DNA from: Zoogloea oleivorans
Lineage (GTDB): Bacteria > Pseudomonadota > Gammaproteobacteria > Burkholderiales > Rhodocyclaceae
Length of the DNA stretch: 64,000 nt
Assembly: GCF_008107625.1 (NCBI RefSeq)
Contig: NZ_SDKK01000011.1
Coordinates: 62,001-126,000 of the forward strand
Reading direction: 5' to 3'
The notes beneath the pieces were generated by a model. It worked only from the letters and a program-made list of their open reading frames with translations. It ran no database searches and was not told where the DNA came from. Below, one piece after another: positions 8,175 through 17,497 of this stretch (positions are counted from its first letter, which is position 1; every line of letters starts with the position of its first letter). Position numbers and translations under genes: made by a program.

Positions 8175-10097
8175 ATGAGTATCTTCACCAGCTTCCAGGC
8201 ACGTTTCGAGTCGGCTCGGGAGGAGGAGATGTCAGTCCAGGAATATCTGGACCTGTGCAAGTCCGACCCCATCGCCTACGCCACTTCGGCCGAACGCATG
8301 CTGCAGGCCATCGGCGAGCCGGAACTCGTCGACACCCGCCTTGATCCGCGCCTGTCGCGCATTTTTTCCAACAAGATGATCAAGATCTATCCCGCCTTCC
8401 GGGATTTCTACGGAATGGAGGAAGCCATCGAGAACATCGTGTCGTATTTCCGACACGCCGCGCAGGGACTGGAGGAAAAGAAACAAATCCTCTACCTGCT
8501 CGGGCCGGTCGGCGGCGGCAAGAGTTCGCTGGCCGAGAAGCTGAAGACCCTGGTCGAGAAGATTCCGTTCTACGCCATCAAGGATTCACCGGTACACGAG
8601 TCGCCACTGGGCCTGTTCAGCGCGCTCGAGGACGGGGCCATTCTTGAAGACGACTACGGTATTCCCCAGCGCTACCTCAACACCATCATGAGCCCGTGGG
8701 CGGTCAAGCGCCTGCATGAATTCAACGGCGACATCACCAAGTTCCGCGTCGTCAAGCTGCGCCCGTCGGTGCTGCGCCAGATTGCCGTCGCCAAGACCGA
8801 ACCGGGCGACGAGAACAACCAGGACATCTCCTCGCTGGTCGGCAAGATCGACATCCGCAAGCTCGAACAGTATTCGCAGGACGATCCGGACGCCTATTCC
8901 TACTCGGGCGGCCTGTGCCTGGCCAACCGGGGCCTGCTGGAGTTCGTCGAGATGTTCAAGGCGCCGATCAAGGTGCTCCACCCGTTGCTGACGGCTACCC
9001 AGGAAGGCAACTACAAGGGCACCGAAGGTTTCGGCGCAATCCCCTTCGATGGCATCGTGATGGCCCACTCCAACGAATCGGAATGGACCGCCTTCAAGAA
9101 CAACCGCAACAACGAGGCCTTCCTCGACCGCATCTACACCGTCAAGGTGCCCTACTGCCTGCGCGTGTCGGACGAAGTGCGCATCTACGACAAGCTCCTC
9201 GCCCACAGCTCCCTGTCGCAGGCGCCCTGCGCCCCCGACACCCTGAAGATGATGGCCCAGTTCGCCGTGCTGTCGCGGGTCAAGGAGCCCGAGAACTCGA
9301 GCATCTTCTCGAAGATGCGTGTCTACGACGGCGAGAACCTGAAGGACACTGACCCGAAGGCCAAGAGCTACCAGGAATACCGCGACTACGCGGGCGTCGA
9401 TGAAGGCATGACCGGGCTATCAACCCGCTTCGCCTTCAAGGTGCTGTCCAAGGTCTTCAACTTCGACCACCGGGAAGTGGCTGCCAATCCGGTGCACCTG
9501 ATGTACGTGCTCGAGCAGCAGATTGCCCAGGAGCAATACCCGCCCGAGAACGAAGCCAGATACCTCGCCTTCATCAAGGAGTTCCTCGCCCCGCGTTACG
9601 CCGAGTTCATCGGCAAGGAAATCCAGACAGCCTACCTCGAGAGCTACAGCGAATACGGCCAGAACATCTTCGACCGTTACGTCACCTACGCCGACTTCTG
9701 GATCCAGGACCAGGAATACCGCGACCAGAACACCGGCGAAATCCTCGACCGCAACGCGCTCAACGACGAGCTCGAGAAGATCGAGAAGCCGGCCGGCATC
9801 AGCAACCCGAAGGATTTCCGCAACGAGGTGGTGAACTTCGTGCTGCGCGCCCGGGCCAAGAACAGCGGCAAGAACCCGAGCTGGACCAGCTACGAAAAAC
9901 TGCGCGCGGTGATCGAGAAGAAGATGTTCTCCAACACCGAAGACCTGCTGCCGGTCATCAGCTTCAACGCCAAGGCCAGCGGCGACGACCAGAAGAAACA
10001 CCAGAACTTCGTCAATCGCATGATCGAAAAGGGCTACACCGAGAAGCAGGTCCGCTTGCTGTGCGAGTGGTATTTGCGCGTTCGCAAGTCGTCATGA
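8175..10097 (+). CDS. prkA: PrkA/YeaG-family AAA+ serine protein kinase
   Basis: Stress and starvation-linked cytosolic kinase/AAA+ protein. The 640 residues match the family length. The N-terminal PrkA AAA domain carries Walker A LLGPVGGGKSSLAEK (about residue 105-119); the C-terminal part holds the kinase-like region. The in-frame upstream ATG at 8109 gives an Arg/Pro-rich extension without homology character, while ATG 8175 has AGGAGA 6 nt upstream, so I chose 8175. It is followed 65 bp later by yeaH and then spoVR, the conserved three-gene set (yeaGH-ycgB in enterics). Enteric yeaGH is controlled by RpoS and nitrogen status; here I see no clear sigma-54 site. Confidence 0.95.
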   Translation: MSIFTSFQARFESAREEEMSVQEYLDLCKSDPIAYATSAERMLQAIGEPELVDTRLDPRLSRIFSNKMIKIYPAFRDFYGMEEAIENIVSYFRHAAQGLEEKKQILYLLGPVGGGKSSLAEKLKTLVEKIPFYAIKDSPVHESPLGLFSALEDGAILEDDYGIPQRYLNTIMSPWAVKRLHEFNGDITKFRVVKLRPSVLRQIAVAKTEPGDENNQDISSLVGKIDIRKLEQYSQDDPDAYSYSGGLCLANRGLLEFVEMFKAPIKVLHPLLTATQEGNYKGTEGFGAIPFDGIVMAHSNESEWTAFKNNRNNEAFLDRIYTVKVPYCLRVSDEVRIYDKLLAHSSLSQAPCAPDTLKMMAQFAVLSRVKEPENSSIFSKMRVYDGENLKDTDPKAKSYQEYRDYAGVDEGMTGLSTRFAFKVLSKVFNFDHREVAANPVHLMYVLEQQIAQEQYPPENEARYLAFIKEFLAPRYAEFIGKEIQTAYLESYSEYGQNIFDRYVTYADFWIQDQEYRDQNTGEILDRNALNDELEKIEKPAGISNPKDFRNEVVNFVLRARAKNSGKNPSWTSYEKLRAVIEKKMFSNTEDLLPVISFNAKASGDDQKKHQNFVNRMIEKGYTEKQVRLLCEWYLRVRKSS

Positions 10098-10162
10098 GCC
10101 TCTGCCGACCGGCCTGCCGCGCGGCAGGCCGATAGCGCACGCCATTATTTCGGGAGGCTCGC

Positions 10163-11428
10163 ATGGTTCGTATCATCGACCGCCGCTTCGACAGCAAGAA
10201 CAAGAGCACCGTCAACCGGCAGCGCTTCATGCGCCGCTTCAAGAACCAGATCCGCGAAGCGGTGGCCGACGCCATTTCCGGTCGCTCCATCAAGGATCTG
10301 GATAACGGCGAAAGCGTCTCCATTCCGTCAAAGGATTTATCGGAACCACAGTTTCATCATGGCAAGGGTGGCATCTGGGAAAACGTCTTCACCGGCAACG
10401 ACCAGTTTTCATCCGGCGACCAGATCAACCGCCCTCCGGGCGGTGGAGGCAGTGGCTCGGGCAAAGGCAAGGCCAGCAAGGATGGCGAAGGTGAAGATGA
10501 CTTCGTCTTCAACTTGTCCCGCGAGGAATTTCTCGACGTCTTTTTCGACGACCTGGCGCTGCCCAACCTGGTCAAGACGCAACTCGCCCGCATCCACGAG
10601 TACAAAAGTCAGCGCGCCGGCTTCACCAACGACGGCACGCCCGCCAACATCAACGTGGTGCGCTCCCTGCGCGGTGCGCTGGGACGTCGTCTGGCCCTGG
10701 CTTCGCCCTACAGCGGCAAGCTGCGCGAACTGCAAAAGCAGCTCGAGGAACTCCTCGAAACCCGCCCCAACGACGATCCGGAAGTACTCAAGCTGAAGGA
10801 CGAGATCGGCATCCTGCGCGCCAAGATCGACGCCATCCCCTTCATCGACACTTTCGATCTGCGCTTCAACAACCGCATCAAGGTGCCCAAGCCGACCACC
10901 CAGGCCGTGATGTTCTGCATCATGGACGTCTCCGGCTCCATGGACGAGGGCAAGAAAGCCACCGCCAAGCGCTTCTTCATGCTGCTTTATCTCTTCCTGA
11001 CCCGTACCTACGAGCACATCGAGGTGGTCTTCATCCGCCACCACACGGTAGCCAAGGAAGTGAACGAAGAGGATTTCTTCCATTCCCGGGAGTCCGGCGG
11101 CACGGTGGTATCGAGCGCCCTGGACCTGATGAAGGAGGTCCTTCAGCAGCGCTACCTCAATGGCGCCTGGAACATCTACGGCGCCCAGGCCTCCGACGGT
11201 GACAACTGGGAGAACGACTCCCCCCACTGCCGCGAGCTGCTCGCCGAATCGATCCTGCCCTTCCTGCAATATTTCGCCTACATCGAGATCACCCCGGGCG
11301 AACCCCAGAACCTGTGGCGCGAGTACGAAAAGCTGCTCGGCGCCCACGCCAACTTCGCCATGCAACACATTGAAGGCCTGCCGGATATCTACCCGGTGTT
11401 CCGGGAACTCTTTAAAAAGAGGCTCTGA
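10163..11428 (+). CDS. yeaH: YeaH/DUF444 von Willebrand A-like protein
   Basis: Partner of PrkA in the stress operon; biochemical role unknown. The 421 residues begin [20 protein letters not shown], have a Gly-rich low-complexity linker ([17 protein letters not shown], about 92-108), and a C-terminal VWA-like domain with the metal-ion motif [12 protein letters not shown] (DxSxS). It starts at ATG 10163 after GGGAGG, 65 bp behind prkA, and its stop overlaps the spoVR start (TGATG). The combination of an AAA+ ATPase with a VWA protein resembles MoxR/VWA pairs; that functional parallel is inference. Confidence 0.93.
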
Positions 11429-12963
11429 TGAGCGCGAAAAGACCAAAGCGGAAACAGCCTCTGCCCTCCCCCGGCGAATGGACATTCGAGTTGATCGAGG
11501 CCTACCACCTCGAAATCGACAGAGTGGCCCGCGAGTACGGGCTGGACACCTACCCCAACCAGATCGAGCTGATTACTTCCGAGCAGATGATGGACGCCTA
11601 CTCCTCGGTAGGCATGCCGGTGAACTACCACCACTGGTCGTTCGGCAAGAGCTTCATGCACACCGAAAAGGGCTACCGCCGCGGCCAGATGGGCCTCGCC
11701 TACGAGATCGTCATCAACTCCAACCCCTGCATCGCTTACCTCATGGAAGAAAACACCATGACGATGCAGGCCCTGGTGATCGCCCACGCGGCCTACGGCC
11801 ACAACAGCTTCTTCAAGGGCAACTACCTCTTCAAGCAATGGACCAACGCCGACGCCATCGTCGACTACCTGATCTTTGCCCGTAACTACCTGAGCGAATG
11901 CGAGGAGCGCTACGGCGAAGAAGAAGTCGAGTTGCTGCTCGACTCCTGTCACGCCCTGATGAACGTCGGTGTCGACCGCTACAAGCGCCCGGCCAAGCTG
12001 TCCCTCAACAAGGAACTGACCCGCCAGCGGGAACGCGCCGAATACCTGCAGAGCCAGGTCAACGACCTGTGGCGCACCCTGCCCGCCCATCAGGCAAAGA
12101 CCCAAACCTTTGAAGAGAAGCGCTTTCCGTCCGAGCCCCAGGAGAACCTGCTCTACTTCATCGAGAAAAATGCCCCGTTGCTGGAACCCTGGCAACGCGA
12201 AGTCGTGCGCATCGTCCGCAAGATCGGTCAGTATTTCTTCCCCCAGCGCCAGACCCAGGTCATGAACGAAGGCTGGGCCACCTACTGGCACTACACCCTC
12301 CTCAACACGCTCTACGACGAGGGCTTACTCACCGACAGCTTCATGATGGAGTTCCTGCACTCCCACACCAATGTCGTCTACCAGCCCAGCTACAACGAGC
12401 CCTGGTACCGCGGCCTCAACCCCTACGCGCTGGGCTTCGCCATGTGGCAGGACATCCGCCGCATCTGCGAGCACCCCACCGACGAAGACCGCCACTGGTT
12501 TCCCGACATCGCCGGCAGCAACTGGCGGGAAACCTTCGACTTCGCCATGCGCAACTTCAAGGACGAAAGCTTCGTCGCCCAGTTCCTGTCACCCAAGGTG
12601 ATGCGCGATTTCCGTCTCTTCGCCATCCTCGACGACGACAAGGAATCAAAGCTCAAAGTCTCGGCGATCCATGACGAAGCCGGCTATCGCCGGGTACGCG
12701 AGATTCTCTCCGACAACTACAACCTGGGCAGCCGGGAGCCCAACCTGCAAGTCTGGAATGTAGACCTGCGCGGCGACCGTTCCCTCACGCTGCGCCACCA
12801 GGCTTACCTGCGCCGTCCACTGAACGGCGATGCGGAAGAAGTCGTCAAGCACGTGGCGCGTTTGTGGGGCTTTGTCGTACGGATGGAAGTCGCCCACGAA
12901 GATGGTCGCGTCGAAGTGCTGCACGAATGCCGACGCGACCGACGCAAAAGCGACGGCCACTAG
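11428..12963 (+). CDS. SpoVR family protein
   Basis: The 511 residues belong to the SpoVR/YcgB family, named for a spore-cortex phenotype in Bacillus but common in non-sporing bacteria, where the role is stress-linked and not defined biochemically. Seen: WTFELIEAYHLEIDRVAREYGLDTYPNQ near the N-terminus (given here only as the family landmark region 13-40), and conserved His-rich stretches such as NYHHWSFGKSF and NEGWATYWHY that could bind metal. ATG 11428 overlaps the yeaH stop, so translation is probably coupled. The three genes prkA-yeaH-spoVR form one operon. Confidence 0.93.
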   Translation: MSAKRPKRKQPLPSPGEWTFELIEAYHLEIDRVAREYGLDTYPNQIELITSEQMMDAYSSVGMPVNYHHWSFGKSFMHTEKGYRRGQMGLAYEIVINSNPCIAYLMEENTMTMQALVIAHAAYGHNSFFKGNYLFKQWTNADAIVDYLIFARNYLSECEERYGEEEVELLLDSCHALMNVGVDRYKRPAKLSLNKELTRQRERAEYLQSQVNDLWRTLPAHQAKTQTFEEKRFPSEPQENLLYFIEKNAPLLEPWQREVVRIVRKIGQYFFPQRQTQVMNEGWATYWHYTLLNTLYDEGLLTDSFMMEFLHSHTNVVYQPSYNEPWYRGLNPYALGFAMWQDIRRICEHPTDEDRHWFPDIAGSNWRETFDFAMRNFKDESFVAQFLSPKVMRDFRLFAILDDDKESKLKVSAIHDEAGYRRVREILSDNYNLGSREPNLQVWNVDLRGDRSLTLRHQAYLRRPLNGDAEEVVKHVARLWGFVVRMEVAHEDGRVEVLHECRRDRRKSDGH

Positions 12964-13139
12964 GGCAGGCATCTGAACGATGCTCATGGGGGAACCCGGC
13001 CGTGCAGGAGGAGCATGGAGCCGGCTTCCGAAACAGCCAACGGCAGAAAACCCTGCCAAATCGCGCCAGACTCACTGCCAAAATCCTGCCAAACCGCTGC
13101 CACTCATTGAGCCCCAGAGAATTTTTATCTTCGCGAAAA

Positions 13140-13152
13140 AATCAAACCATTG
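13140..13152 (+). promoter_or_regulatory. IHF consensus site
   Basis: AATCAA-ACCA-TTG matches the IHF core WATCAANNNNTTR at every defined position and is preceded by an A-run. It lies about 35 bp upstream of the sigma-54-like promoter, where an IHF bend usually brings the activator to the polymerase. The site overlaps the palindrome at 13144-13167. Confidence 0.55.
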
Positions 13153-13184
13153 ATATTTAAATGGTTTTTAACAACCTCTCCGAC

Positions 13185-13200
13185 TGGCATGAATATTGAT
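13185..13200 (+). promoter_or_regulatory. Sigma-54-like promoter for petA-like/pdo-like/ccoG
   Basis: TGGCATG-AATA-TTGAT matches TGGCACG-N4-TTGCW with two changes (C to T in the -24 block, C to A in the -12 block). The GG doublet and the G of the -12 block have the exact spacing. The predicted transcription start is near 13211, about 42 nt before the Rieske ATG. The downstream sigma-54 activator gene at 16193 supports it. Confidence 0.55.
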
Positions 13201-13252
13201 ACAGGTCTACTGATATTCCGCCAAACAAATTGGCCCAGATCAGGAGAACCTC

Positions 13253-13885
13253 ATGACCAGCACGACCTCGCCCCCTGTCTTTTGCGGCGCATCGGACGCC
13301 CCCTGCAATCCTTCCCGGCGTCAGTTGCTGATTGCCACCGCAGGTGTGGGTGGTGCGCTCGTGGTGGGCACGGCAGTACCCTTCGTGGCCAGCCTGACCC
13401 CGTCCGAACGGGCAATGGCGGCCGGCGCGCCGGTGGAAGTCGATATCGACAAGCTGGCTCCCGGCGACCTGATGGTCGTCGAATGGCGCGGCAAGCCTGT
13501 ATGGATACTGCACCGCACGCCGCAGATGCTTGCGGCGCTGGCAAAGTCTGAACCTGACCTGGCGGATCCGGGTTCGGCGGTCGAATCCCAGCAGCCAGAC
13601 TACGCACGCAACCCCCACCGTTCGGTAAAACCCGACTACCTGGTCGCGGTAGGGATATGTACCCATCTCGGCTGCTCCCCGTCCAGTGCGTTCGAGCCCG
13701 GCAAAGCGGAGATGGGGGCAGATTGGCCGGGCGGCTTCCTGTGCCCCTGTCACGGCTCCACCTTCGACTTTGCCGGACGGGTTTTCAAGAACAAGCCAGC
13801 CCCCACCAACCTCGAAATACCTCCCCACAAATACCTGAGCGACGCCCGCCTGCTGATCGGCGCGGATGACTCGGCACGCGGCTGA
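13253..13885 (+). CDS. Orphan Rieske iron-sulfur protein (bc1-type, PetA-like)
   Basis: The 210-residue protein has a twin-arginine leader and anchor (SRRQLLIATAGVGGALVVG, residues about 22-40) and a C-terminal Rieske fold with the 2Fe-2S ligand boxes CTHLGC and CPCHGS; both disulfide Cys are present. In the cytochrome bc1 complex such a subunit passes electrons from quinol to cytochrome c1 on the periplasmic face. Unlike a normal petABC operon, no cytochrome b or c1 gene follows; a PDO-like gene and ccoG follow instead. Extra petA copies that can exchange into bc1 are known in other betaproteobacteria (Rubrivivax). Here it may be an alternative subunit made under sulfur stress; that is inference from the FisR-type gene nearby. 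Confidence 0.9.
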   Translation: MTSTTSPPVFCGASDAPCNPSRRQLLIATAGVGGALVVGTAVPFVASLTPSERAMAAGAPVEVDIDKLAPGDLMVVEWRGKPVWILHRTPQMLAALAKSEPDLADPGSAVESQQPDYARNPHRSVKPDYLVAVGICTHLGCSPSSAFEPGKAEMGADWPGGFLCPCHGSTFDFAGRVFKNKPAPTNLEIPPHKYLSDARLLIGADDSARG

Positions 13886-13921
13886 CGCAGACGACAAGCA
13901 TGGAATGCACAGGACTAAGGC

Positions 13922-14578
13922 ATGTATTTCCGTCAGTTTTTTGACTCGGCCAATGCGGCGATGAGTTACCTGCTTGCCGATCTGCCCACTGGACAGGCGG
14001 TAGCGATTGATCCGAGTCCTGATCCTTGTCAGACCCTCGTTCTCAAATCTCTCCTGGCCGAACGTGGCCTCGCCCTGGAATTCATCATGCTCACCCACAC
14101 TCACGGACAGGCGGCGGACGATCTTTCCGATCACTATCCGGGCGCCGAAATCCTGGTCGGAAAACGGACACGCTCAAAGACGGGCGATCGGTTCGTGGAG
14201 CATGGCGAGATGCTCCATTGCGGCAACCAAAGCATTCAAGTCATCGCAACGCCTGGCCATACAGCCGACAGCCTGAGTTTCCTGTGGCTCGATCGACTGT
14301 TTTGTGGAGACGCGCTGGAACTCGGTGGCTGTGCCCGAAATGCGGATGAGGATTGCGATCCGGGCAGTCTTTATGACTCGGTGGTCAGACGGCTTTTCGA
14401 GCTGCCAGATGAAATCCTGGTCTTTCCCGGACATGATTTCCACGGACGGACCGTCTCGACCATCGGCGAAGAGCGGACACGCAATCCATTCTTCCTTTCA
14501 CGATCACGGGATGAATTCATCACCGCCTTCAGTAGCTACCAGCATGGACAGGCATGCTTCCCGGCTTCCGGACTTTAA
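13922..14578 (+). CDS. ETHE1/persulfide dioxygenase-like metallo-beta-lactamase protein
   Basis: The 218-residue protein aligns in layout with ETHE1-type persulfide dioxygenases, which oxidise glutathione persulfide to sulfite. Candidate mononuclear iron ligands are present: His59 (THTH), His113 (TPGHT) and Asp130 (FCGDA). The C-terminal signature PGHDFHGRTVSTIGEE is typical of ETHE1 enzymes, and Arg139 fits the glutathione-binding Arg. The usual HxHxDH box is changed to HTHGQA, losing the residues of the second metal position, which ETHE1 iron enzymes do not use. The GRTDFQ loop is also altered. It starts 36 bp after the Rieske gene and ends 18 bp before ccoG, so the three are probably co-transcribed. 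Activity is likely but not certain. Confidence 0.75.
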   Translation: MYFRQFFDSANAAMSYLLADLPTGQAVAIDPSPDPCQTLVLKSLLAERGLALEFIMLTHTHGQAADDLSDHYPGAEILVGKRTRSKTGDRFVEHGEMLHCGNQSIQVIATPGHTADSLSFLWLDRLFCGDALELGGCARNADEDCDPGSLYDSVVRRLFELPDEILVFPGHDFHGRTVSTIGEERTRNPFFLSRSRDEFITAFSSYQHGQACFPASGL

Positions 14579-14596
14579 TATTTATACAGTGCAATC

Positions 14597-16036
14597 ATGA
14601 GCCAGCCAGACACCCACGCGGCAAAGAAACCCGATGCCCACCCCAAGGCCGGAGAGAATGCGGAAGACACCTTATATGCTGTGCGACAAAAGGTTTACCC
14701 CCGCGCAGTAACAGGTCTGTTTGCGACCTGGCGGTGGATTCTCGTATGGGCCACCCAGCTGATTTTCTATGGTCTTTGCTGGCTACCCTGGAATGGGCGA
14801 CAAGCTGTACTGCTGGACGTTGTTGAACGCAAGTTCTACATTTTTGGCTGGATATTCTGGCCGCAGGACATATTCTTTTTGGCAATCCTGCTGATCATCA
14901 GTGCCTATTCGCTCTTTTTCTTTACTGCGGTCGCTGGTCGCCTGTGGTGCGGCTATGCATGTCCGCAAACGGTTTATACCGAAATCTTCATGTGGATCGA
15001 AGAGAAGATCGAGGGGAATCGCAGCCAGCGGATGAAACTGGACCAATCGCCGATGAGTGCCCGAAAGGTGGCCCTCAAGGCTGCCAAGTTTGGGGCCTGG
15101 GGCGCACTGTCCTTATGGACAGGCTTTACCTTGGTGGGCTATTTCACGCCGATCCAGGACTTGCTCCATGAAGCGGTGACATTCAGTTTCGGGCCGTGGG
15201 AGCTCTTCTGGATATCCTTTTACGGTGGCTTTACCTACCTCTTTGCGGGCGTCATGCGCGAACAGGTCTGCAAATACATGTGCCCGTATGCCCGCTTTCA
15301 GGGGGTCATGTTCGATGCGGATACCCTGGTCATTACCTATGACCCGGAGCGCGGCGAGCCACGTGGGGCACGCAAAAAAGGGGCTGATCCAAAAACAGTT
15401 GGCAAGGGCGATTGTGTTGATTGCGGGATCTGTGTTCAGGTCTGTCCGACGGGCATCGACATTCGCAACGGAATGCAATATGAATGCATCGGCTGTGCCG
15501 CCTGTATCGACGCCTGCGATCAAGTGATGGAGAAAATGAATTACCCGAAGGGGCTTATCCGTTACACCACCGAGAATGCAATGAAGCGGCAGTGGGGGCG
15601 AAAGGAAATACTCGCCCATGTAATGCGGCCGCGCATCCTGATTTACGCCGGCGTTCTGATGGCGATTTGCGCAGCCTTTATGTGGGGTCTGGCAACACGC
15701 TCGACCTTGCGTGTTGATGTGATCAAGGATCGTTCGACCCTCAGTCGTGAAGTGGAAGGTGGATTGATCGCCAACGTCTACAACCTGCAAGTCATGAACA
15801 TGACCGAAAAACCGCGTCGCTTTGCATTGTCCGCAAGTGGCCTGGATGGCGTCCGGGTCAGCCCTGCCGAGCCTTTCGAAGTTGATGCGGCGGGTCTCAA
15901 GGCCGTAACCATCGAGGTGGCTGTGCCTCCGGAATCGGGCAAGCCTGGCTCCAATACTGTCTATATCGAAATCAAGGCGCTAGATGATGAAACCGTGTCT
16001 GTTCGTGAGAAGACGGCGTTCTTGATACCGCGATAA
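14597..16036 (+). CDS. ccoG: CcoG (FixG/RdxA) membrane ferredoxin-like protein
   Basis: The 479-residue inner-membrane protein has about five transmembrane segments, a polyferredoxin core and a C-terminal Ig-like domain. Cys boxes seen: RLWCGYACPQTVY, VCKYMCPYARFQG, CVDCGICVQVCPTGID and CIGCAACIDACD. CcoG is known as an accessory factor for cbb3 oxidase and has been described as a Cu(II) reductase. No ccoNOQP, ccoI or ccoS gene is nearby, so this copy is detached from the usual oxidase locus and sits in the Rieske/PDO-like operon. Third codon positions look less GC-rich than in flanking genes, which could mean acquisition by transfer. Confidence 0.92.
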   Translation: MSQPDTHAAKKPDAHPKAGENAEDTLYAVRQKVYPRAVTGLFATWRWILVWATQLIFYGLCWLPWNGRQAVLLDVVERKFYIFGWIFWPQDIFFLAILLIISAYSLFFFTAVAGRLWCGYACPQTVYTEIFMWIEEKIEGNRSQRMKLDQSPMSARKVALKAAKFGAWGALSLWTGFTLVGYFTPIQDLLHEAVTFSFGPWELFWISFYGGFTYLFAGVMREQVCKYMCPYARFQGVMFDADTLVITYDPERGEPRGARKKGADPKTVGKGDCVDCGICVQVCPTGIDIRNGMQYECIGCAACIDACDQVMEKMNYPKGLIRYTTENAMKRQWGRKEILAHVMRPRILIYAGVLMAICAAFMWGLATRSTLRVDVIKDRSTLSREVEGGLIANVYNLQVMNMTEKPRRFALSASGLDGVRVSPAEPFEVDAAGLKAVTIEVAVPPESGKPGSNTVYIEIKALDDETVSVREKTAFLIPR

Positions 16037-16132
16037 AGGATTAAAAGCACGGATCACGTAGTCATCGCCACCATCGATAAAAGGGGGCTGGCACAATCAG
16101 GATTGCTGTTGCATGCGACAGGCTGCATGACA

Positions 16133-16180
16133 TTGACCAGGGTGAACTGCCATGTCAGCATCTGACAGTACATCTGGCAG
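16133..16180 (+). promoter_or_regulatory. fisR promoter with nested palindromic operator
   Basis: A perfect 15-bp dyad TGTCAG-CAT-CTGACA (16153-16167) lies within a wider inverted repeat CTGCCA (16147-16152) / TGGCAG (16175-16180). A sigma-70-like -35 TTGACC (16133-16138) is followed after 17 nt by a weak -10 (CAGCAT, 16156-16161) that overlaps the dyad. It lies 26 nt before the fisR ATG, so autoregulation is plausible. Confidence 0.45.
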
Positions 16181-16192
16181 ACATCGGACCCC

Positions 16193-17497
16193 ATGACAGC
16201 CAAGCCCCACCCCTTGCCCGAACTGGTCTCGTTCCTCGAGTCCCTGCCCGAACCGCACATCCTGTGCGACCGCAGCTACCGGATACTGGCCGCCAACGCG
16301 GCCTACCGCGCCAACTGTAGTCGCCCCGACGATCTCATCGGCCGCAAGTGTTTCGAGGTGTCCCACCACTATCCCGTCCCATGTGACCAGGCCGGCGAAT
16401 CCTGCCCGCTCGCCCGCAGTCTCAAATCCGGCCAGCGGGAGCGTGTTGTGCATTTGCACCACACCTCGACGGGAGAAAGTTACGAAAACATCGAGCTGTC
16501 GCCGATCAGGGACAGCACCGGCGAGATTGCCTACTTCATCGAAAAGCTGGAGCCGCTGCCGGTAGCCCGCGGCCTCGCCAGCGCCCAAGGTCTGATCGGG
16601 CGATCGCCGACGTTCCGGGCCATGCTGGAACTGCTGGCCCGGGTCGCGCCATCGGATGCCACTGTCCTGCTGCAGGGCGAATCAGGAACGGGCAAAGAAC
16701 TGGTGGCCCAGGCCATCCACGAAGGCAGCCGGCGCGCAGGGCGCCCCTTTATTGGCGTCGATTGCTCCGGCCTCACCGAAACTCTGTTCGAGAGCGAGCT
16801 TTTTGGTCATGAACGTGGCGCCTTTACTGGCGCGACCGCACGCAAGGTCGGTCTCGTCGAGGCCGCCAGCGGTGGCACCCTGTTCCTCGATGAACTGGGC
16901 GACATTCCGCTGACCATGCAGGTCAAGCTTCTCCGCCTGCTCGAAACCGGCACCTATCGCCGGGTAGGCAGTACCGAACTGGTTCGCTCCGACATCCGCC
17001 TGATTTCCGCAACCCATCAGCCACTCAAAACCCTCGTGGCAAAGGGAAAATTCCGCCAGGATCTTTTCTACCGGGTCAATGCCTTTCCGATCAGCCTGCC
17101 GCCTTTAAGTGCTCGCCGGGAAGACATCCCGCTTCTGGCCGAGGCGCTGCTCGCACGCGTTGCCCCCGAGCGCGCACTGAAGATTGCCCCTGATGCACTC
17201 GCCTGCCTGCTGGCGTACGACTATCCCGGCAATGTGCGGGAGCTGCGCAACATCCTGGAGCGTGCAAGCCTGCTCTGCGATGGCGACACGCTGCAATTTC
17301 ACCATCTCCCCGAAGAACTGCAGTCGCCTGAAGGAGACGGGCCCATCGAAGCCCCCCTGACGCAAACCACGGACACAAGGACTGACGCAGATCTGGCCGT
17401 GGCGCTGCAAGCTCACAAGGGCTCCCGCAAGGCGCTGGCGATCAAACTCGGGATGAGCGAACGAACGCTTTATCGGCGGCTCAAGAGCATCCCGTAA
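16193..17497 (+). CDS. fisR: FisR-type sigma-54-dependent activator, sulfane-sulfur sensor
   Basis: The 434-residue enhancer-binding protein has an N-terminal PAS-like sensor (1-125), the sigma-54 AAA+ domain (about 135-365: Walker [15 protein letters not shown] loop, Walker [12 protein letters not shown]) and a C-terminal Fis-type helix-turn-helix ([16 protein letters not shown]). The sensor has Cys53, Cys64 and Cys71 in [20 protein letters not shown]. These are exactly the three positions I recall for FisR of Cupriavidus pinatubonensis, which senses sulfane sulfur and activates pdo and sqr. The adjacent PDO-like gene and sigma-54-like promoter fit that role. No sqr is in the window. Its 3' end overlaps the convergent hydrolase gene by 17 bp. 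Confidence 0.85.

Follow-up and report, generated by a model that had tools for sequence, protein, structure and literature searches.

In Cupriavidus pinatubonensis HN-2, whose fisR locus we take to be the one published for strain JMP134, the gene of a FisR regulator faces those of a Blh-type persulfide dioxygenase (PDO) and of a fusion between a BLH phosphatase and a protein similar to sulfide:quinone oxidoreductase (SQR). Here we analyse a FisR-type sigma-54 activator of the betaproteobacterium Zoogloea oleivorans, encoded on a 64-kb stretch (NZ_SDKK01000011.1, positions 62,001 to 126,000; hereafter the window) of its 5.68-Mb genome, together with the preceding operon of a second Rieske protein, a metallo-beta-lactamase-fold (MBL) protein and CcoG. 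Both systems share the regulator family (the two FisR proteins are 54% identical), the three sensor cysteines, CTGCCA-type sites and a TGGCACG-N4-TTGA core: in C. pinatubonensis the same half-sites, with TGGCACGAGTTTTGAG, lie between fisR and pdo-sqr. The targets differ. In Zoogloea the predicted targets are respiratory genes (cydAB for cytochrome bd, Rieske, ccoG) together with that of a degenerate PDO homologue, and the operon is devoid of SQR.

YgaV of Escherichia coli belongs to the winged-helix repressor family. This sulfide-responsive protein of SqrR/BigR type affects cydAB and katG transcripts, among about 150 targets, and katG likewise adjoins cydA in Z. oleivorans; YgaV is however no sigma-54 activator, and the accessible part of its description mentions no Rieske/MBL/ccoG operon (PMC9774250). 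In Acinetobacter baumannii, sulfide induces both the FisR operon and cydAB, the latter induction not being assigned to FisR in the available text; there, FisR lacks the three cysteines and was shown to control pdo1-sqr-tauE (PMC7315123). Cytochrome bd linked to sulfide resistance in Alishewanella is controlled by the GbsR-type CydE, a dedicated bd regulator as proposed for FisR here, but one described as a repressor relieved by sulfate and not as a sigma-54 activator (PMC6096048). A FisR regulon of cydAB or Rieske is not described in the accessible portions of three related papers (PMC7315123, PMC8148161, PMC9774590). Our literature search, with most subscription journals outside its range, found no paper joining cytochrome bd, PDO, operon and Rieske, nor one joining cydAB, sigma-54, sulfide and betaproteobacteria.

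The activator and its candidate promoter sites

Four open reading frames (ORFs), all on the plus strand, encode the Rieske protein, the MBL protein, CcoG and the activator, with gaps of 36, 18 and 156 bp. Families, assigned with Pfam and NCBIfam profiles, agree with a first-pass annotation of this DNA, which had described a petA-like gene, an MBL gene and ccoG in tandem, an activator with Cys53, Cys64 and Cys71 behind them, and no sqr; the window indeed holds none. The features are:

13053–13102, plus strand: upstream activating region with candidate FisR sites, CTGCCA half-sites at 13053, 13075, 13086 and 13097
13140–13155, no strand: two overlapping matches to the IHF consensus, WATCAANNNNTTR, between the half-sites and the core
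13185–13200, plus strand: sigma-54-type -24/-12 core, TGGCATGAATATTGAT, 53 bp 5' of the Rieske start codon
13253–13885, plus strand: orphan Rieske iron-sulfur protein, the second of the genome, with both boxes (CTHLGC, CPCHGS) and a Tat/UCR anchor
13922–14578, plus strand: PDO/ETHE1-derived MBL-fold protein, without HxHxDH; His59, His113 and Asp130 kept, Cys128 present
14597–16036, plus strand: CcoG, cupric-reductase family with ferredoxin-type [4Fe-4S] domains, by family match
16193–17497, plus strand: FisR-type sigma-54 activator, with a PAS sensor containing Cys53, Cys64 and Cys71, an AAA+ domain (GAFTGA seen) and a Fis-type helix-turn-helix

The activator has the domain layout of FisR (PAS_4, Sigma54_activat and HTH_8), and no other activator of the genome matches it along its whole length, PAS region included. 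The sensor cysteines, numbered 53, 64 and 71 as in the first-pass annotation, do not vary across the 22 aligned FisR rows (rows L086 and L155 being one gene), which bears out the type assigned to it. Three conserved cysteines are a published trait of FisR (PMC9774590).

The strict promoter core, TGGCAYGNNNNTTGAT, occurs twice in the genome: once before the Rieske operon, where it is the sole such site in the window, and once about 225 bp before the only cydA, which is unlinked to the window. The reversed-pattern control gave no match. Taken alone, the window core reaches the 99th percentile when its region is shuffled 1000 times. When the regions before the first gene of 20 loci were scanned with weights of our own, TGGCAYG-N4-TTGAT came out on top in 17, and a variant of it in the other 3 (L079, L081 and L082). 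Our genus promoter set of 23 genomes contains 48 core sites, spread over 21 genomes, compared with 2 sites for the reversed control. They are followed by cydA (16), Rieske (15), a gene linked to the C5 protein or SLAC1 transporter described below (3), ccoG (2) or another gene (12); genes of this set, called module genes hereafter, thus lie behind 36 of the 48.

The TTGAT core was rejected as a FisR-specific signal on its own: besides the 12 non-module sites themselves, 11 of these have no CTGCCA half-site and the twelfth has one. Also dropped was the possibility that TTGAT is part of an FNR/Anr box, as the partner half, judged by eye, is mismatched in the window. Five of the 12 sites are found about 365 bp before a 331-residue ORF, presumably a phenol-hydroxylase subunit, in five genus genomes (L189, L192, L193, L199 and L206; perhaps also L167), without CTGCCA; the copy in L192 is cut at 255 residues.

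Upstream of the core, no hexamers are more enriched than ACTGCC and CTGCCA in the 200-bp stretches preceding 38 module promoters, a set made of 34 of the 36 genus module sites (the Rieske site of G017 and the cydA site of G019 were left out) and 4 others. Of the 38 stretches, 37 contain CTGCCA or its complement, with 4.9 expected; at least two half-sites per 200 bp are likewise found in 37, and in 1.9% of random stretches. They mostly lie 70–145 bp upstream of the -24 element, and the last three of the window follow each other in 11-bp steps. As the 38 promoters are the set in which the hexamers were discovered, and its members are related, the independent tests weigh more. The exact IHF consensus is seen in six of these promoters, at -41 in five and at -42 and -45 in the window, over a background of 0.06% per 100 bp.

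Searching the 23 genus genomes with a combined half-site and core pattern gave 48 matches (overlapping starts counted) and none for the control. We kept 31 promoter positions in 30 loci: 24 of them are followed by module genes, among these ccoG in G016, G019, G020 and G021, and 7 are not. A half-site with a sigma-54 core also stands before an ORF that looks pilin-like by eye in L273 (G006:C4), and there is a similar site at G022:C144:37146.

Three things together make common FisR control of these genes across the genus Zoogloea very likely, as judged from sequence: the promoter code, its presence at unlinked cydAB and ccoG loci, and its recurrence at Cupriavidus pdo-sqr. The invariant cysteines and, again, the code shared with pdo-sqr suggest that the signal is probably sulfane sulfur. 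The first-pass annotation had placed the Rieske operon under predicted sigma-54 control, which the sigma-54-type core and repeated upstream sites favour; the strict core at the sole cydA strengthens the case for the coupling of a sulfane-sulfur-type sensor to respiration that it had proposed.

Conservation of the gene set and its Rieske and CcoG members

We searched 60 genomes, that of Z. oleivorans included, for the MBL protein. At 50% identity or more it occurs in 13 other genomes of the genus and in one of the family (G030). A Rieske gene precedes it by 168–371 bp in all 13, a YbgE-type gene being inserted between the two in 11 (the 36-bp gap of the window has none), and in 11 the DNA fetched around it also contains FisR. 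The grouping is thus not due to chance. In G030, FisR is present at the MBL locus and Rieske is not. Co-occurrence of the four genes in relatives, a check proposed with the first-pass annotation, stands for Rieske, MBL and FisR; it fails for ccoG, as just 2 of the 14 genus genomes with the MBL have that gene next in the row.

Additional genes recur at these loci: cydA/cydB (5 loci), katG (3 loci), those of YbgE, of a SLAC1/TehA-type transporter and of a protein that we call C5, and, in two loci, those of a globin, a Blh-type MBL protein and SulP. C5 is a secreted protein of about 165 residues with no Pfam match (NCBIfam was run on one copy), encoded for instance at L159:6334-6774, L045:6041-6535 and L042:10498-11055; it recurs with cydAB, Rieske and FisR, and in some genomes has its own FisR-type promoter.

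Outside the genus, MBL loci were taken from an alignment scan of which the best 80 of 180 were kept; FisR lies within the fetched DNA at 17 of these 80. The order FisR-cydA-cydB-MBL is found in Parazoarcus communis, a strain of the gammaproteobacterial family Granulosicoccaceae, a Rhodocyclaceae metagenome-assembled genome (MAG) and a soil MAG; another MAG (L088) has FisR-Rieske-MBL-CcoG, its CcoG being 35% identical, and two Azoarcus genomes have Rieske-FisR-cydAB. In P. communis, cydAB and a degenerate MBL gene are followed by that of a flavoprotein resembling SQR and flavocytochrome c sulfide dehydrogenase (FCSD; L086:10781-12130), which has a Tat signal by eye and scores below the family cut-off.

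Across the order, FisR was detected at E ≤ 1e-100 in 73 of 399 genomes and 33 of 159 genera. We inspected the neighbours at 29 loci besides that of Z. oleivorans: cydA or cydB in 15, Rieske in 3 (one of them also with cydA; a 46-bit Rieske piece in L217 was left out of the count), and PDO, CcoG and SLAC1 in 2 each. At least one module-type gene adjoins FisR in 23 of the 29, and FisR is divergent from cydAB in many relatives.

The window Rieske protein scores 207.7 bits with TIGR01416 (cut-off 97.4), keeps both boxes and carries the UCR/Tat anchor. It is a bc1 Rieske protein by these features, with a predicted role in the bc1 complex. Another Rieske protein of the genome exceeds the cut-off and is 65% identical to it. 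Its gene is on another contig, before two ORFs recognised without profile scan as cytochromes b and c1, so the window gene was rightly called an orphan. In the genus set, the second Rieske (202–213 bits) is found in 19 of 23 genomes and the first (>224 bits) in 21. We rejected a redox-tuned spare, as the CTHLGCSP and CPCHGSTFD boxes are identical in both copies.

CcoG (TIGR02745, 522 bits, cut-off 316.7; FixG_C present) is one of four such proteins above cut-off in the genome. It belongs to the same family as the CcoG of cbb3 oxidase clusters, and is 88% identical to the product of a ccoG gene located after ORFs recognised, without profile scan, as ccoN, ccoO and ccoP; unlike that copy, it sits outside such a cluster, in a FisR-type operon. 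CcoG is known as a cupric reductase supporting cbb3 assembly (PMC7558416). We rejected the view that the unit requires it, since it is complete beside MBL only in Z. oleivorans and G002. It is found elsewhere with a FisR-type promoter of its own (G003, G015, G016, G019, G020 and G021), with its end adjoining FisR at a contig edge (L075–L077), or beside FisR in the order-wide loci L235 and L236. CcoG is a variable yet recurrent member of the set.

Directly 5' of the Rieske operon, at 8175-12963, genes for PrkA, a DUF444 protein and SpoVR stand in a row, by appearance a common stress-related cluster.

The PDO-derived protein

The MBL protein is assigned at superfamily level alone (PF00753), and its best relatives in the PDB are ETHE1/PDO. 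A predicted model, computed from 15 sequences with a mean pLDDT of 81.8 and used for the fold alone, is closest to the ETHE1/PDO of Myxococcus xanthus (4ysb, TM 0.82). With the ETHE1/PDO family it shares this fold and the positions of the putative iron ligands, the triad His59, His113 and Asp130. It has lost HxHxDH, and the first-pass view of an ordinary PDO-like enzyme is, given this loss, not supported.

The same motif is absent from the MBL proteins of 20 of the 80 loci, 17 of which have FisR, whereas none of the 60 loci with a canonical MBL does. The degenerate proteins, including that of the window, form a clade of 21 (support 0.993) apart from 61 canonical sequences. The last His of HxHxDH is found in 0 of 21 versus 61 of 61, and its Asp is retained in 8 of the 21; GCGRTDF retains its Arg in 5 of 21 versus 61 of 61, the window protein being among those that have it (Arg139). 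Two residues before the triad Asp, 20 of the 21 have a Cys (Cys128 in the window), where all 61 canonical sequences have Thr. Given this motif loss, the separate clade, Cys128 and the PDO-like fold, we call the protein PDO-derived and do not count it among the persulfide dioxygenases. We found no study of the degenerate clade in the literature searched.

It could still be a working dioxygenase, with altered second-sphere residues or another persulfide substrate. The triad residues are kept in 20, 20 and 19 of the 21 sequences, the modelled fold remains near that of 4ysb, Arg139 is in place, and selection is purifying, with dN/dS values of 0.10–0.24 in seven MBL pairs (for FisR, the pair of the window and L066 was unused: they are not orthologues, there being no FisR on that contig). 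This reading is nevertheless rather unlikely in view of the last His and the GCGRTDF Arg, both universal in canonical proteins, and of two members that have lost ligands: the genus homologue L078 lacks the Asp and the late His, and MAG L085 most of them.

Another MBL protein of the genome, at G000:C69:47150, has HxHxDH and is 44% identical to that of the window. A plasmid search with the window protein returned 619 records, all below 60% identity.

A proposed respiratory regulon and its alternatives

We propose, with a probability of about 0.6, that a FisR/sigma-54 regulon keeps respiration running under sulfide or persulfide stress. Sulfane sulfur, from a source such as FCSD, would modify Cys53, Cys64 and Cys71 of FisR, by analogy with C. 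pinatubonensis. Bound to CTGCCA repeats, FisR would activate sigma-54 polymerase at 13185, upstream of Rieske-MBL-ccoG, and at the unlinked cydAB promoter, both predicted from their sites. Cytochrome bd, published as sulfide-resistant in E. coli (PMC4815019), would then take over the electron flow. In the bc1 complex, the spare Rieske may take the place of a damaged one; CcoG may supply Cu(I) for heme-copper oxidase assembly or reassembly when sulfide binds copper. In the weakest step, the MBL protein, a repurposed PDO fold, would handle persulfide through its changed active site or Cys128.

Classical sulfide oxidation is not visibly part of this regulon. In the genome, the canonical PDO gene, petA, ccoN and the cco-linked ccoG have neither half-site nor core in the 400–500 bp before them, and the 700 bp before the FCSD gene contain a single half-site without a core. 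That gene (L237, G000:C35:246778-247722), identified as the FCSD flavoprotein by comparison with the PDB, is the one match (28%) in the genome to the SQR encoded at the Cupriavidus fisR locus, the single SQR type searched. Targets including pdo and sqr, typical of FisR, are thus not found: the strict core precedes Rieske-MBL-ccoG and cydA alone.

The absence of a core before those sulfide-oxidation and respiratory genes counts against our proposal, as do several other points. TTGAT-type cores also precede other genes (12 of the 48 genus sites), and this -12 element departs from the TTGC consensus. The combined pattern misses the cydA promoter of Z. oleivorans and matches an unrelated position in its genome (G000:C1:49491, one half-site), and L088 has a core with no half-sites. 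The code is weaker order-wide: in the 500 bp before FisR, 12 of the 29 loci have at least two half-sites, 9 have one and 8 have none, a loose core, mostly with TTGC, is seen in 19, and 6 show no module gene. The identical Rieske boxes reveal no special property of the spare copy. Finally, FisR of A. baumannii lacks the three cysteines and yet controls a sulfide-induced operon, according to the part of that work available (PMC7315123).

Could the same regulon answer to another signal, such as NO, cyanide, a different oxidase poison or a redox change? Cytochrome bd would be useful against several such poisons; bd oxidases show a much lower sensitivity to sulfide and cyanide alike (PMC4815019). 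Two genus genomes carry a globin gene within their cydAB stretch, and 54% identity to the C. pinatubonensis homologue leaves room for ligand drift. We consider this improbable, since all three cysteines are invariant, the half-sites and core are as at C. pinatubonensis pdo-sqr, and PDO-type or sulfide-oxidation genes recur beside FisR. Far less credible still is a neighbourhood arisen by chance, or by plain vertical inheritance of a gene row, without shared control. The promoter evidence does come mostly from one genus, and ccoG and linked genes vary. But this promoter, upstream sites included, is also found at unlinked cydA and ccoG loci, promoters stay while gene order changes among species, and FisR-cydAB is met again in Parazoarcus, Azoarcus and a gammaproteobacterial strain. 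The proposal of a FisR-controlled respiratory regulon therefore fits these data better, and the interpretation given by the first-pass annotation is, overall, partly supported.

In a more tentative extension, for which we would give less than even odds, FisR would, in many species of this betaproteobacterial order, act chiefly as a respiratory switch, with cytochrome bd as core target, and not in sulfide oxidation; and the new PDO-derived family of the regulon, with HxHxDH lost and Cys128 gained, would serve membrane respiratory complexes by handling persulfide or by repair, instead of acting as a dioxygenase.

Induction of cytochrome bd by sulfide is known from several bacteria. If our proposal is true, FisR would provide a second way, unrelated to YgaV, for persulfide sensing to act on the respiratory chain, with a defined promoter code of CTGCCA repeats and TGGCAYG-N4-TTGAT. 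It would also flag a clade of PDO-like proteins for study, in a system testable in tractable activated-sludge bacteria.

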